Both the position numbers and the translations under genes were made by a program. This document shows positions 11,907-21,349 of a stretch of 64,000 bases of DNA, in pieces. The DNA comes from an uncultured Ectothiorhodospiraceae bacterium (GTDB lineage Bacteria > Pseudomonadota > Gammaproteobacteria > Nitrococcales > Nitrococcaceae). Below the pieces are notes generated by a model, which was not told the DNA's origin, made no database searches, and saw only the letters and a program-made list of their open reading frames with translations. Positions within the stretch are counted from its first letter, which is position 1, and each line of letters opens with the position of its first letter. The DNA lies in NCBI GenBank assembly GCA_913056385.1, contig CAJXND010000004.1, positions 1 through 64,000 on the forward strand. Reading direction: 5' to 3'.

Positions 11907-12143
11907 ATGCGAACCATCATTGATCTGCCGGATTCTCAGATCGCCGCACTGCGCGAGCTCGGCGAGCGTGACCAGGTCTCTCGCGCCGAGCTGATTCGTC
12001 GGGCTGTGGAGAGCTACATCCATGCTCATGAGCCTTCGATTAGCGATGATGCTGCCTTCGGACTATGGCGCGATCGCCAGGATGTCATCCACGGTGGTGT
12101 GGCCTATCAGCGCCGCATACGGGCGGAATGGGATGAGCGATGA
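11907..12143 (+). CDS. Ribbon-helix-helix (CopG-type) antitoxin, VapB-like
   Basis: MRTIIDLPDSQIAALRELGERDQVSRAELIRRAVESYI. Confidence 0.85.
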   Translation: MRTIIDLPDSQIAALRELGERDQVSRAELIRRAVESYIHAHEPSISDDAAFGLWRDRQDVIHGGVAYQRRIRAEWDER

Positions 12144-12514
12144 AAGCGGTATTCGATACCAATATCCTTATCGATTTTCTCTCGGGCCTAGAGGCGGCAA
12201 GAGAGGAACTCGCGCGGCATGATGTGGCACTAGTTAGCGCGATTACCTGGATGGAAGTAATGGCCGGCGCCACACCAGCCGAGGATGCCTCTCTTCGTGC
12301 TTTTCTCATGCGATTCCGGGTGCTGCCAGTCGATGAGGCGGTCATGGAGGCGGCCGTCGCAATTAGACGAGAGCAGTCCATCAAACTGCCCGATGCCATC
12401 ATCTGGGCGACCGCCCGCTGCGAATATGCCCTTCTGGTGACCCGCGACCAGCGGGCCTTTCGGGTGACGTCACCTGAGATCCGGGTTCCCTACCAGGTTC
12501 ACGATCGGGGCTAA
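12140..12514 (+). CDS. PIN-domain ribonuclease toxin (VapC family)
   Basis: AVFDTNILIDFLSG, WMEVMAGA, LPDAIIWATA, LLVTRDQRAF; ATGA overlap. Confidence 0.92.
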   Translation: MKAVFDTNILIDFLSGLEAAREELARHDVALVSAITWMEVMAGATPAEDASLRAFLMRFRVLPVDEAVMEAAVAIRREQSIKLPDAIIWATARCEYALLVTRDQRAFRVTSPEIRVPYQVHDRG

Positions 12515-12534: not shown

Positions 12535-13347
12535 ATGTTCCTTTTCACCAAACTCGTTGGTGCGCTGCTCAAGCCGCTGAGCCTGGTCGTGATGGCCCTG
12601 CTGGTCGGGCTTCTCGTGGCCGCTTTCACGCGTTGGCGGCGCAGTGGCCTCGCGCTGATCGGCGTGACGACACTGGCCCTGGCCCTGATCAGTTGGTGGC
12701 CGGTCTCGAACACGCTCATGGTCCCTTTGGAGCGGGTTTACACGCCGGTGGAGGTCAGTGCGCCCGATGGACCCGGCCGGACGCTGCCCGGGGATGTCGC
12801 GGCGATTGTCGTGCTGGGGGGTGGCGCCGTTGACGATCCCTCGCTGCCGTTGAGCGCGCAGCTGTCGTCGACCTCGCTGCAGCGGCTTATCGAGGGTATT
12901 CGGTTGTGGCGGCTGCGTCCCGATGCCCTGCTTGTGACAAGCGGGGCGCTGCCGTATGGGCGGTCCCAGGCGGAAATCGCCGCGGACCTCGCGGTGGCGC
13001 TGGGCGTGCCACGGGCGCGGATTCGCATGCTGCCGACGGCACGCAATACCGCGGAGGAGGCGGCGGCCTATGTCGATCTCATCGACACCTTGAGCGCGGA
13101 TGGAACCGGCGCCGGGTTCCGCAAGCCGGTGGTTGTAAGCTCGGCGAGCCATCTACCGCGGGCCATCGCCGAGTTCCAGAGCCAGAGTCTGGAGCCTGTC
13201 GCGGCCCCAACGGCCCACCGGGCCGCGCCCGAGCGCTTTGCCCTGCCCGGCGATTTTGCGCCGCAAGCCGATGACCTGCGCACCACCGAGGCCGCCTGGC
13301 ACGAATTCCTCGGCCGGCTTTGGGCGCGGTTGCGAGGGAGGGGATAG
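12535..13347 (+). CDS. YdcF/ElyC-like DUF218 membrane protein
   Basis: Two N-terminal TM helices; AIVVLGGGAVDDPSLPLSAQ, LLVTSGALPYG, ARNTAEEA, VVVSSASHLPRA. Confidence 0.85.
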   Translation: MFLFTKLVGALLKPLSLVVMALLVGLLVAAFTRWRRSGLALIGVTTLALALISWWPVSNTLMVPLERVYTPVEVSAPDGPGRTLPGDVAAIVVLGGGAVDDPSLPLSAQLSSTSLQRLIEGIRLWRLRPDALLVTSGALPYGRSQAEIAADLAVALGVPRARIRMLPTARNTAEEAAAYVDLIDTLSADGTGAGFRKPVVVSSASHLPRAIAEFQSQSLEPVAAPTAHRAAPERFALPGDFAPQADDLRTTEAAWHEFLGRLWARLRGRG

Positions 13348-13390
13348 GCGCCCTGCCTTTACGAAATGGGCCGGTAAAGCGCACACTGAA

Positions 13391-13398
13391 TCGTACGA
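13391..13398. promoter_or_regulatory. Short palindrome TCGTACGA, possible operator of the Phd/RelE-like module
   Basis: 8-bp palindrome with GTAC core about 24 bp upstream of GTG 13422. Confidence 0.3.
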
Positions 13399-13421
13399 AT
13401 GACAACATTCTGGAGGGCGTT

Positions 13422-13679
13422 GTGAGTGATCTCACCGCTAATGAACTGAAAACCCGTGGCGTCTCCGCGATCGAGGAGGCGTTGAAGAACGAGACCGAGG
13501 CGGTGGTTTCGGTGAGGGGAGAGCGCCGCTATGTGGTCATGGACATGACCCAGTACACCCACTTACGCGAATGCGAGCTCGAGGCAGCACTCGCGGAGTC
13601 GCGTGCAGACCGTGATGCAGGGCGCTTCGTGCGTGAGTCTGCCGACGAGCATGTGGAGCGGCTGAGCACGAAGAGATGA
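13422..13679 (+). CDS. Phd/YefM-type antitoxin (GTG start)
   Basis: VSDLTANELKTRGVSAIEEALKNETEAVVSVRGERRYVVMDMTQYTHLRECELEAALAESRAD; upstream GGAG. Confidence 0.8.
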   Translation: MSDLTANELKTRGVSAIEEALKNETEAVVSVRGERRYVVMDMTQYTHLRECELEAALAESRADRDAGRFVRESADEHVERLSTKR

Positions 13680-13960
13680 GCTATGCGCTCGTCTTTACGC
13701 AAAGCTATAACCGACGTGCTGCCAAATGGCTCAAACGGCATCCGGATCTAAAGAGCCAGTACCTCAAGACATTGAGATTGCTCGAGGTCGATCCTTTCCA
13801 TCCGTCGCTGCGACTGCATGCCTTGAGAGGGCGTCTTGAGGGGCTTCATTCGGTCTCGATCAACCTCTCTTACCGCATCACCATGGAGTTGCTGGTAACG
13901 GAGAGAGAAGTTGTGCCAGTCAATATCGGTAGCCATGACGCAGTATACCGTTCGGGCTGA
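13676..13960 (+). CDS. RelE/ParE-superfamily toxin
   Basis: YALVFTQSYNRRAAKWLKRHPDLKSQYLKTLRLLEVDPFHPSLRLHALRGRLEGLHSVSINLSYRI; ATGA overlap. Confidence 0.85.
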   Translation: MSYALVFTQSYNRRAAKWLKRHPDLKSQYLKTLRLLEVDPFHPSLRLHALRGRLEGLHSVSINLSYRITMELLVTEREVVPVNIGSHDAVYRSG

Positions 13961-16486: not shown

Positions 16487-16837
16487 TTATTGCTCTGCGC
16501 AGCGAATGCACAGTGTGGCGGCCGGGTCGACCTCGAGGCGCTGGGGGTTGATGAATTCCCCGCATCGCAGACACTCGCCGTAACTGCCATCCTCGCAGCG
16601 TTGAAGGGCCGAGGCGATGCGCTTCAACGTGAGCCGAGCGCGTTCATCGGTCGCCTGCGCCATCGCCTGTTGTTGTAGCGCATCCATTCGCGAGAGACGC
16701 CCGACCCGGGTCTGATCAAGCTCCACCGTGGCTCGCGATACATCCCGCGTCTGCTCCAGCGCCTCGATCTCCGAGCGCATCGCCTCAAGGCGTTGCCGGA
16801 AATAGGGGATATCCGGTTGATCGAACTCATCTGACAT
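16487..16837 (-). CDS. DksA/TraR-family zinc-finger protein
   Basis: RIASALQRCEDGSYGECLRCGEFINPQRLEVDPAATLCIRCAEQ. Confidence 0.88.
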   Translation of the reverse strand: MSDEFDQPDIPYFRQRLEAMRSEIEALEQTRDVSRATVELDQTRVGRLSRMDALQQQAMAQATDERARLTLKRIASALQRCEDGSYGECLRCGEFINPQRLEVDPAATLCIRCAEQ

Positions 16838-16946
16838 CGAATCAGCCTAGCATGCGCCCCAGGGCCGGAGCCCTATTGATGCCGCGTGAGTCGTGGCTTG
16901 CCGTCCGCGGAAGCGCCTGCTCCCCCTCTCTTTCCCCCCTGCACAC

Positions 16947-17123
16947 GTTGGACAGAGTAATGCGCGACGTGATGCATAACGCGTTCAAGGGCGGTGACGC
17001 GTTAAGTCTGCGTGAAAGGTGCTGCACATCCGACTGAAGCGCTTTAACTCTGTCCATCCGTCAGACGCCGCCCGGCATTCTGGTTATGCGATACGTAAAG
17101 TGTCCATCAGCACTCTGTCCAAC
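16947..17123. repeat. 177-bp nested imperfect palindrome (MITE-like or attC-like structured element)
   Basis: Outer arms GTTGGACAGAGT (16947-16958)/ACTCTGTCCAAC (17112-17123); inner arms GCATAAC (16974-16980)/GTTATGC (17083-17089); inner stem GGGCGGTGACG (16989-16999) vs CGTCA-GACG-CCGCCC (17059-17073). Confidence 0.6.
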
Positions 17124-17357
17124 ATGCGCATAGCGCTCAAAGACCTCCCCACCTCCCGATGCTCCCCACCCCTTGCTACCGCTCGTCAGCGGCATACCGT
17201 CACTCGTCACTCCTGCGTGAATTCGCCGACGAAAGGTCGCTCGTAGCGCATTGCGTCATGTTCTTCTGGGGGCAAGTGAACCAGTGATCTAGCGCCAACC
17301 TCGCGCCGTGTTTCGTTGCCGAGGACGCCTGATCCGATCCGAGGAGTGTCACCTGGA

Positions 17358-17738
17358 ATGCTCAAATCCTTCGCAGTCCCTGGCTTGAGAGCGATCTGGC
17401 ATGGACGTCGTCCCCGACGAATGCATCCGCGACTGCTGTTTGCGGTAAGGCGGGATTTGTCCATCCTCCATGCCGCGATCTCTCTCGATGACCTGAGAAG
17501 CGCGGTCAGCAATCGGCTTGAGCTGCTGGTTGATGAGTCCATCCCGTTCGATGAGCTCTCAGTAGCCTCGACCACCAGGCACCCGACAGCCGCCTCGACC
17601 ATTCAGCCAGCGGCTGGGCCAGGAGGCGAACCGCAGATGTGTCATCTGCATGTGGGCTATGGATGGTTCCTGTCCTTTGAGTTCCGAGATGGCGAGGCTC
17701 ATGGCATCAGGCTGGAGGAGGTGCCCGTTGATGGATGA
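17358..17738 (+). CDS. HigB-like (RelE superfamily) toxin with an extended central region
   Basis: MLKSFAVPGLRAIWHG..RLLFAVRRDLSILHAAISLDDL..NRLELL..HLHVGYGWFLSFEFRDGEAHGIRLEEV matches HigB ends; about 30 extra residues in the middle; overlaps a HigA-like gene. Confidence 0.6.
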   Translation: MLKSFAVPGLRAIWHGRRPRRMHPRLLFAVRRDLSILHAAISLDDLRSAVSNRLELLVDESIPFDELSVASTTRHPTAASTIQPAAGPGGEPQMCHLHVGYGWFLSFEFRDGEAHGIRLEEVPVDG

Positions 17739-18123
17739 TCCGATGTCCAGACTCTGTCCCACAGAGCCATACGCTGCGGGCGAATCTCCATCCGCCGACC
17801 CTCGTGACCCGGCACTTGTCGATGACGCCGACGCGCCTGTTCCTCCGGGTGAGATCCTCGGAGCCAGCTTCATGCTGCCGCGGGGCCTGCTGCCAACGTC
17901 CCTGGCGCGGGCGCTGCAGGTTCCGGTAAACCGCATCACTGATATTCTCAGCGGCAAACGCCGCATCACGGCGCAAACGGCATTACTGCTGGCCACTTAT
18001 TTCGACACATCGCCCGAGTTCTGGCTGCGGCTTCAAATGGATTACGATCTCCGATGCGCGCGCCGCCGTGGGCGGATTCGAACGCATCTCCAGGCCATCC
18101 AGTCCTGCAGGTGCTCTCGCTGA
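17731..18123 (+). CDS. HigA/VapI-like HTH antitoxin
   Basis: PPGEILGASFMLPRGLLPTSLARALQVPVNRITDILSGKRRITAQTALLLATYFDTSPEFWLRLQMDYDLR; N-terminal extension; atypical Arg/Cys-rich C-terminus. Confidence 0.8.
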   Translation: MDDPMSRLCPTEPYAAGESPSADPRDPALVDDADAPVPPGEILGASFMLPRGLLPTSLARALQVPVNRITDILSGKRRITAQTALLLATYFDTSPEFWLRLQMDYDLRCARRRGRIRTHLQAIQSCRCSR

Positions 18124-19674: not shown

Positions 19675-19731
19675 AAAATGGATAGCTGAGTATCCTTAAT
19701 CAACGATTGTGGATACTCAAAAATCCATTTT
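19675..19731. promoter_or_regulatory. Nested inverted repeats, candidate HipB operator region
   Basis: AAAATGGAT (19675-19683)/ATCCATTTT (19723-19731) enclosing GAGTATCC (19688-19695)/GGATACTC (19711-19718); TATCC/GGATA half-sites as in described HipB operators. Confidence 0.7.
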
Positions 19732-20061
19732 ATGGCCATCAGGCAAAGAGTTTACTCACCCTCTACCCGTGAGGCGGTCGAGCTGCTGGGGCGCCTTGTC
19801 CGTACGCATCGTATCGAGCGGCGCATGACCGCCTCCGATGTGTCTGAGCGGGCAGGCATCACGCGTGTCACCCTGCGGCGCATTGAAAACGGGGACCCGG
19901 GGACGGATATCGGCCTCTATTTCGAGGTCGCTACCATCGTGGGTGTGCCGCTGTTCAATGCCAGCCCGGCAGAGCTGCGACGGGCTAACCGTGAAGCTGC
20001 GGATCGACTGACGCTGTTGCCGCGTCACGCCCACTCCCCAAGAGTGGATGATGACTTCTAG
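19732..20061 (+). CDS. HipB-like HTH antitoxin
   Basis: EAVELLGRLVRTHRIERRMTASDVSERAGITRVTLRRIENGDPGTDIGLYFEVATIVGVPLF. Confidence 0.87.
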   Translation: MAIRQRVYSPSTREAVELLGRLVRTHRIERRMTASDVSERAGITRVTLRRIENGDPGTDIGLYFEVATIVGVPLFNASPAELRRANREAADRLTLLPRHAHSPRVDDDF

Positions 20062-21349
20062 CCCACGGCAGCCGGTTAGCGCCTATGTCTGGATCTGGCT
20101 GCCGGGGCGGACCGAGCCGATTGTCGCCGGGCGGCTGGATGCCCAGGCGGATATCGTCACGTTCACCTACGGGAGGCGCTACATCGCCCGCCCGGACGCG
20201 ATTCCGATTTTCCGGGATCTTCCGCTGGGGCGTGGAGTGCAGTACCCGTCAGACGGCCTCCTGATGGCCGGCTCGATTCGGGATGCCGCCCCAGATGCCT
20301 GGGGACGACGCATCATCATGGAACGTCTGGACGGATATCGGGGCGCTCATCTCGATACGGCGAGCTTCGGCGAAATCACTTATCTGCTGGAATCCGGATC
20401 AGACCGCATCGGTGCACTCGATTTCCAGCGCTCGGCGGATCAATACACGCCCCGGCTCAATTTCAATGCCGACCTCGCTGAATTAATGACAGCGGCAGAT
20501 CGAGTCGATCGGGGCATATCCCTGTCACCGGAGTTGGATCGCGCCCTGCAGCATGGGACTTCCATCGGTGGGGCACGGCCGAAAGCACTGGTCGATGATG
20601 ATTCGCAGAAGTTTGTGGCCAAGTTCAGCAGTAGCGCCGATCTTTTCAGCGTCGTTAAGGCGGAGTACATCGCCATGCGCCTGGCCGCCCTCTGTGGGCT
20701 GGACGTGGCGAAGGTCATGCTTCGGCGCGTGCTCGGTCGCGATGTCCTGTTGGTTCAGCGATTTGACCGTGTTCGCGCCACGGCTGGCTGGCAACGACGG
20801 GCGCTGGTGTCAGGGCTCACACTGTTGGGCCTCGACGAGATGCTGGCGCGCTATGCCTCCTACGAGGCACTTGCCCATGTCATCCGCGCCGGCTCGCGTG
20901 CGCCGGAGGTTGACCTGCGCGAGCTATTCGACCGACTGGTGTTCAACATCCTGATCGGCAATACCGATGATCATGCCCGCAATCACTCCGCTTTCTGGGA
21001 CGGCGAATGGCTCTCGCTGAGCCCGGCCTATGACCTCTGCCCTCAGTCGCGGGTGGGGGGCGAGGCCTCGCAGGCCATGGCGATCACCGACGATGAGCGC
21101 AGCAGTCGCCTTGCAGTCTGTCTTGCCGCCGCGCCGGTATTCAGGCTGTCGAGGCAGGATGCGCGAGGGATCATTGATGATCAGGTGCGCACAATCATCA
21201 ACCACTGGCATTCGGTGTGTGATGAGGCAGGATTGGCACCGGCGGAGCGCGCCGCACTCTGGGGCCGCCAGTTTTTCAATCCTTTCTGCATCGAGGGTCT
21301 TGAGGACGTGGCACCGGAGATTGCCGCCACCGTGCGCGCCGCGCTATAG
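20048..21349 (+). CDS. HipA-like serine/threonine kinase toxin
   Basis: SIGGARPKALV, VKAEYIAMRLAALCGL, LLVQRFDR, LFDRLVFNILIGNTDDHARNHSAFWD, LSPAYDLCP. Confidence 0.93.
   Translation: MMTSSPRQPVSAYVWIWLPGRTEPIVAGRLDAQADIVTFTYGRRYIARPDAIPIFRDLPLGRGVQYPSDGLLMAGSIRDAAPDAWGRRIIMERLDGYRGAHLDTASFGEITYLLESGSDRIGALDFQRSADQYTPRLNFNADLAELMTAADRVDRGISLSPELDRALQHGTSIGGARPKALVDDDSQKFVAKFSSSADLFSVVKAEYIAMRLAALCGLDVAKVMLRRVLGRDVLLVQRFDRVRATAGWQRRALVSGLTLLGLDEMLARYASYEALAHVIRAGSRAPEVDLRELFDRLVFNILIGNTDDHARNHSAFWDGEWLSLSPAYDLCPQSRVGGEASQAMAITDDERSSRLAVCLAAAPVFRLSRQDARGIIDDQVRTIINHWHSVCDEAGLAPAERAALWGRQFFNPFCIEGLEDVAPEIAATVRAAL

Follow-up and report, generated by a model that had tools for sequence, protein, structure and literature searches.

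A long inverted repeat upstream of a higBA-like pair, a probable member of a low-copy family of MITE-like hairpin elements in Spiribacter

The window, a 64,000-nucleotide stretch of DNA analysed as a whole, lies within a 1.95-Mb draft genome of 86 contigs whose genus we have taken as Spiribacter. A gap of about 520 bp separates a DksA/TraR-type gene on the minus strand from a higB-higA pair on the plus strand, and a long inverted-repeat element occupies this gap (Table 1). The element contains only short mechanical ORFs and no recognisable gene. Downstream of it, the first-pass annotation had recognised a HigBA-like pair. This identification is confirmed by HigA, which scores above its family cut-off, with a weak match of HigB that falls under the Pfam cut-off.

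Four toxin-antitoxin-like pairs are found inside 10 kb of the window, higBA (17358-18123) among them. The others are a VapBC-like pair of RHH and PIN proteins (11907-12511), a pair of Phd/YefM-like and YafQ-like proteins for which both matches are weak (13320-13957), and a pair of HTH and HipA-like proteins (19732-21346). Directly upstream of the last pair is a compact inverted repeat (19675-19731) with 27-nt arms, 81% pairing and 3-nt spacing, which is perhaps the operator of that pair or a terminator.

Table 1. Positions of the inverted-repeat element, its arms and the flanking genes in the window
Feature	Position	Strand	Remarks
DksA/TraR-type zinc-finger gene	16487..16837	-	PF01258 over cut-off
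Whole inverted-repeat element	16929..17143	.	Best-estimate extent, exact ends not fixed; from gapped arm alignment, arm score against 300 shuffles
Left arm	16929..17026	+	Approximate ends; holds GTTGGACAGAGT (outer, 16947-16958), GCATAAC (middle, 16974-16980) and GGGCGGTGACG (inner, 16989-16999)
177-nt core of the first-pass annotation	16947..17123	+	RNA fold -70.1 kcal/mol, z -4.19
Right arm	17035..17143	-	Approximate ends; holds ACTCTGTCC (third occurrence of the repeated word, 17047-17055), CGTCAGACGCCGCCC (inner, 17059-17073), GTTATGC (middle, 17083-17089) and ACTCTGTCCAAC (outer, 17112-17123)
higB-like toxin gene, first downstream of the element	17358..17738	+	PF05015 E 0.0011, below Pfam cut-off; orthologues in genus
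higA antitoxin gene	17731..18123	+	TIGR02607 82 bits, cut-off 47.7; start is an ATG overlapping the higB stop

The gap had been described as holding a 177-bp nested imperfect palindrome built of three pairs of complementary arms. Direct reading of the sequence confirmed the position of every arm and of a third occurrence of the repeated word (Table 1), and a fourth near-copy with one mismatch, GTGGGACAGAGT, is present at 17751-17762 on the minus strand. The palindrome exists as described except in its extent, the true inverted repeat being longer than 177 bp. The ungapped outer arms reach 19 nt at 89% (16940-16958 and 17112-17130). The gapped arm-to-arm alignment has 71 matching positions in arms of about 100 nt, which enclose a loop of 8 nt. 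Its arm-pairing score was 55.5 against a composition-matched mean of 26.7, and none of 300 shuffles equalled it. Folding of both strands had been proposed as a check. The plus-strand RNA of the 177-nt core folded better than all of 200 shuffles, and the minus strand was near average (RNA z about -1, DNA z -1.7). Fold controls from 110 intergenic 200-nt stretches of the genus had a mean z of -0.58, with 3 of them below -4, so that the element stands in the tail of this distribution.

Similar gapped arm scores were obtained for a dozen other stretches of the GC-rich 64 kb, and one further arm pair of the same strict score lies inside the dksA-like gene of the window. The palindrome alone is therefore only moderately unusual and we make no strong claim from it. 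These scores elsewhere in the window speak for a chance palindrome in non-coding DNA, but the fold z of -4.19 argues against this explanation. The higBA gap is also the site of the top-scoring long-range inverted repeat in 240 kb of another Spiribacter genome, G009, and in 160 kb of a third, G012, and related elements exist at other loci. These comparative results make a chance palindrome very unlikely, and it is they, rather than the palindrome itself, that make the case convincing.

By sequence, the region is single-copy. The BLAST search that had been suggested as a check for dispersed copies was run with a 271-bp region against the window genome and 58 relatives, and its sole extra result was a weak match located in the syntenic gap of G009. 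The motif GACGNANTRCGTC was not enriched in the genome. Against Rfam covariance models, the window region had no match with E of 5 or lower and 12 related loci had none with E of 0.5 or lower, and identity with a known structured RNA was rejected for this reason. A plasmid search with the window element and with a second element of the same genome (C77, see below) gave no match, nor did a phage search with the C77 element. Pattern matches in IMG/VR came one per contig, never as an inverted pair, and look like chance.

We then compared the gap among 14 Spiribacter species genomes, in which the window genome is numbered G000. The order of the dksA-like gene and higBA is conserved in G009, G013, G012, G001, G006, G007 and G004. 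In G003 the two lie at two contig ends and are likely adjacent. The gap palindrome is strong in G009 (fold z -7.4 on the plus and -4.9 on the minus strand), G013 (-4.4/-4.7) and G012 (-4.4/-5.7), moderate in G003, and weak or non-significant in G001, G004, G006 and G007. In G005, higBA is found at another place and a strong palindrome is still upstream of it; the palindrome tracks higBA, not dksA. G002 has no higBA at the site, and its dksA-like/DUF1289 gap (L085:1376-2034) contains instead a tandem array of five 129-bp units, in each of which there are nested inverted repeats together with a GTAGGACAGAGC stretch resembling the window arm. Upstream of HigA homologues from outside the genus, no palindromic element of the window's kind could be recognised. 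Between species the gap palindromes are barely alignable, mostly at chance level, the clearest exceptions being the pairs window-G009, G013-G012 and G012-G001.

That the palindrome so often lies upstream of higBA is easier to reconcile with a maintained feature than with random insertion. The main rival to a mobile element is a selected, locus-bound hairpin that would control higBA as a structured leader, an antisense RNA or a DNA cruciform, its pairing being kept while the sequence drifts. Consistent with such a hairpin, the palindrome is strong upstream of higBA in the window, G009, G013, G012 and G005, accompanies the relocated higBA of G005 and was not found in G002, where higBA is absent, and in the window the fold of the plus strand is clearly superior to that of the minus strand. 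However, the better-folding strand varies among species, the higBA gaps of four species have a weak or non-significant palindrome, no Rfam model matches, and related elements are present at unrelated loci without higBA. The arm mismatches are unbiased by strand, and the lack of a consistent G-U bias mildly favours a role as DNA over one as a one-strand RNA. We consider a control hairpin or RNA of higBA rather unlikely.

The comparison with G009 raised another alternative. The window left arm (16947-16975) fits the right arm of the G009 element (L084) more closely than it fits the left one, as though an exchange of the element or of its arms had taken place. When the elements are aligned over their whole length, the score is likewise higher in opposite orientation (z 8.3-9.6 vs. 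5.0-5.4). An invertible segment could give this result, as could arms homogenised by recombination between inverted repeats (gene conversion or template switching), which would stay alike without selection or mobility. But the inner part of the two elements aligns in neither orientation, so a true inversion is not shown, and whole-element inversion was not upheld for the inner part. Symmetric arms alone can give an orientation signal, and copies at other loci are left unexplained by recombination. This explanation appears improbable to us.

Elements related to the window copy, 152-347 bp long (about 150-350 bp), are found elsewhere than in the higBA gap. With GACGCRTGGGCTAA, from the arms of the G003 and G005 copies, as query, inverted pairs were retrieved at other loci. 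One of them is a second element in the window's own genome (G000:C77:1829-2073); with an arm pairing z of 12.6 and a fold z of about -10.6, it is the strongest of all the hairpins observed. It adjoins a Phd/PIN toxin-antitoxin pair, with a second PIN toxin nearby, and is closer to the G003 copies than to the window copy. The C77 contig is short and belongs to a draft assembly whose contamination is estimated at 3%, so this element may be of lateral origin or misbinned. G003 has about five elements (at C40, C76, C116, C21 and C89), G005 three loci and one lone arm (three or four elements), and G006 and G009 two each. The G005 element at clpB (L211) has a degenerate right arm and an inner run of about ten tandem CCATACG-type units. 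The census covered about 829 kb of G000, 1.2 Mb of G006, 240 kb of G009 and 160 kb of G012.

Two copies were found without any sequence query. An inverted-repeat scan of spacers gave the second G009 copy, between gcvH and the phosphomannomutase gene, pmm (L197:11472-11623). It is of the window's arm type and aligns with the G009 higBA copy (z 7.9, or 14.8 with extended ends). The G006 copy upstream of clpB was found by inspecting orthologous spacers; it matches an arm profile weakly (E 0.0095 in a 28-kb search). Arm profile R1 gave no match to the window copy.

Arm pairing is far above that of shuffles in the window, G009, G013, G012, G005, C76 and C40 of G003, and C77. By eye, many copies have in common a motif resembling GTnACCCCCTTTTTGG in the outer part, an arm box specific to the lineage and, further in, words such as ACGTAA and GCGTTAC. 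ACTCCGTC is found in 6 of 17 elements against 0.13 expected. The window copy has only part of the common features, and its place in the family depends chiefly on how closely it resembles the two G009 copies.

Orthologous junctions were compared for presence or absence of the element. The pmm junction is filled in G009 (after gcvH) and in G005 (after tpx), where the element is contained in roughly 300-450 bp of extra DNA; at the G009 junction this DNA exceeds the hairpin in length. The same junction is empty in G001, G002, G006, G012 and G013, the genes overlapping or lying within a few tens of bases. At the clpB junction, G005 and G006 carry an element, and inspection of G000, G001, G002, G009, G011 and G012 revealed none. 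This filled/empty pattern is of the kind that a mobile element leaves, and loss from an older state could also account for it at each site. Because some species have an element at a site where others have none, it resembles small mobile DNA rather than an integron site or a known RNA.

Copies at different loci of the same genome are alike (median alignment z 11.3, 94% above 4), whereas copies at the same locus in different genomes mostly are not (median z 1.8, 17% above 4). The likeness within genomes owes something to ascertainment, since it was by sequence that the G003, G005 and C77 copies had been retrieved. Pairs found without sequence are nevertheless also alike, with z 14.8 for the G009 higBA and pmm copies and 12.9 for the G006 higBA and clpB copies. 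The exception is G000, where the window copy and C77 are dissimilar.

Taken together, the palindrome appears to be one copy of a low-copy Spiribacter family of non-coding, MITE-like mobile elements of about 150-350 bp, probably an old resident upstream of higBA; we put the probability of this reading at about 0.58. The elements are dispersed in several genomes and carry no recognisable gene. The hairpin family is real and, as far as the tools used show, undescribed. In the first paper on a Spiribacter genome, compact spacers and islands rich in toxin-antitoxin genes are mentioned, and searching it by terms brought up nothing on repeats of this sort (PMC3832224). In kind the family is ordinary, being small, palindromic and probably mobile DNA; what sets it apart is that it occupies the higBA gap again and again and that its arms differ between species.

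Apart from two long, imperfect inverted arms, which can pair into a single large hairpin, an element contains little. The arms are most likely the target of an enzyme supplied in trans, by which the element is moved or copied into short gaps between genes. What this enzyme recognises may be the paired ends or else the hairpin, in cruciform or single-stranded DNA. Movement would then be by transposition, the higBA gap would be a preferred or long-retained site, and the likeness within a genome would reflect recent spread or exchange between copies. The low copy number and the difference between the window copy and C77 count against this reading. A broader proposal can be made only tentatively, and we hold it doubtful. 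It describes a genus-wide mobile hairpin family that keeps its pairing and a short end motif while, among the copies of each genome, arm sequence is replaced lineage by lineage, in a concerted turnover that perhaps tracks a changing recognition protein. The higBA gap would be its preferred home site, refilled or maintained in most species.

The species are salt-water bacteria, and the genomes that host the family are small. Hairpins of 150-350 bp that recur beside toxin-antitoxin genes, and between genes that abut in relatives, are either small parasites that persist or regulatory structures that are maintained. With copies alike within a genome and different between species, the family offers a small system in which the renewal or retention of long inverted repeats can be tested.

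Among known systems, the integron attC site had been proposed at this locus from the layout of the inner boxes. An attC site, or the relic of a cassette with a toxin-antitoxin pair, would fit the long imperfect hairpin, the GCATAAC/GTTATGC boxes and the adjacent toxin-antitoxin pair, which the C77 element has as well. The boxes, however, are in the wrong order, RYYYAAC ... GTTRRRY at 40-200 nt being found on neither strand of any element tested, and copies also adjoin housekeeping genes (gcvH-pmm, clpB). No integrase had been noticed in the first-pass annotation, and an IntI (TIGR02249) above cut-off was found in none of the 14 genomes, which as drafts do not make this absolute. Integrase-type matches reached only the XerC/XerD level, and the same matches were found in all control genomes. 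By box order and IntI, an attC site was rejected, and we give this origin next to no weight. The family resembles attC sites in its long imperfect hairpin, kept structure, variable sequence and nearness to toxin-antitoxin genes, and differs from them in its box order, in the absence of an IntI above cut-off, in its larger size and in having no cassette array.

REPs (REPINs, GTAG-/CGTC-tagged repeats) are 20-40 bp long and of high copy number, and some species also have moderately abundant long-TIR families (PMC3116915, PMC3733652). The Spiribacter elements are likewise short palindromic intergenic DNA, probably mobilised in trans. At 150-350 bp and 1-5 per genome they differ from the smaller and usually numerous REPs, and membership of that class was rejected by size and copy number.

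Bacterial MITEs are the nearest comparison. The outer arms had been likened to the terminal inverted repeats of a MITE, and this holds in kind, since related elements with long inverted repeats are dispersed, a second one is in the same genome and junctions are empty in other species; a MITE in the strict sense is unproven. The family differs from bacterial MITEs in arms that span almost the whole element, in species-specific arm sequence and in very low copy number. As in the first-pass annotation, no target-site duplication was recognised by eye, the species being too divergent to fix exact ends, and no partner transposase with such ends came up in an unsystematic search. Several dispersed copies exist for the family, the window copy being alone by sequence in its own genome. 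With bacterial MITEs the elements share a length of a few hundred bp (under about 600 bp) without a transposase or other recognisable gene, terminal inverted repeats, intergenic dispersal and empty orthologous sites.
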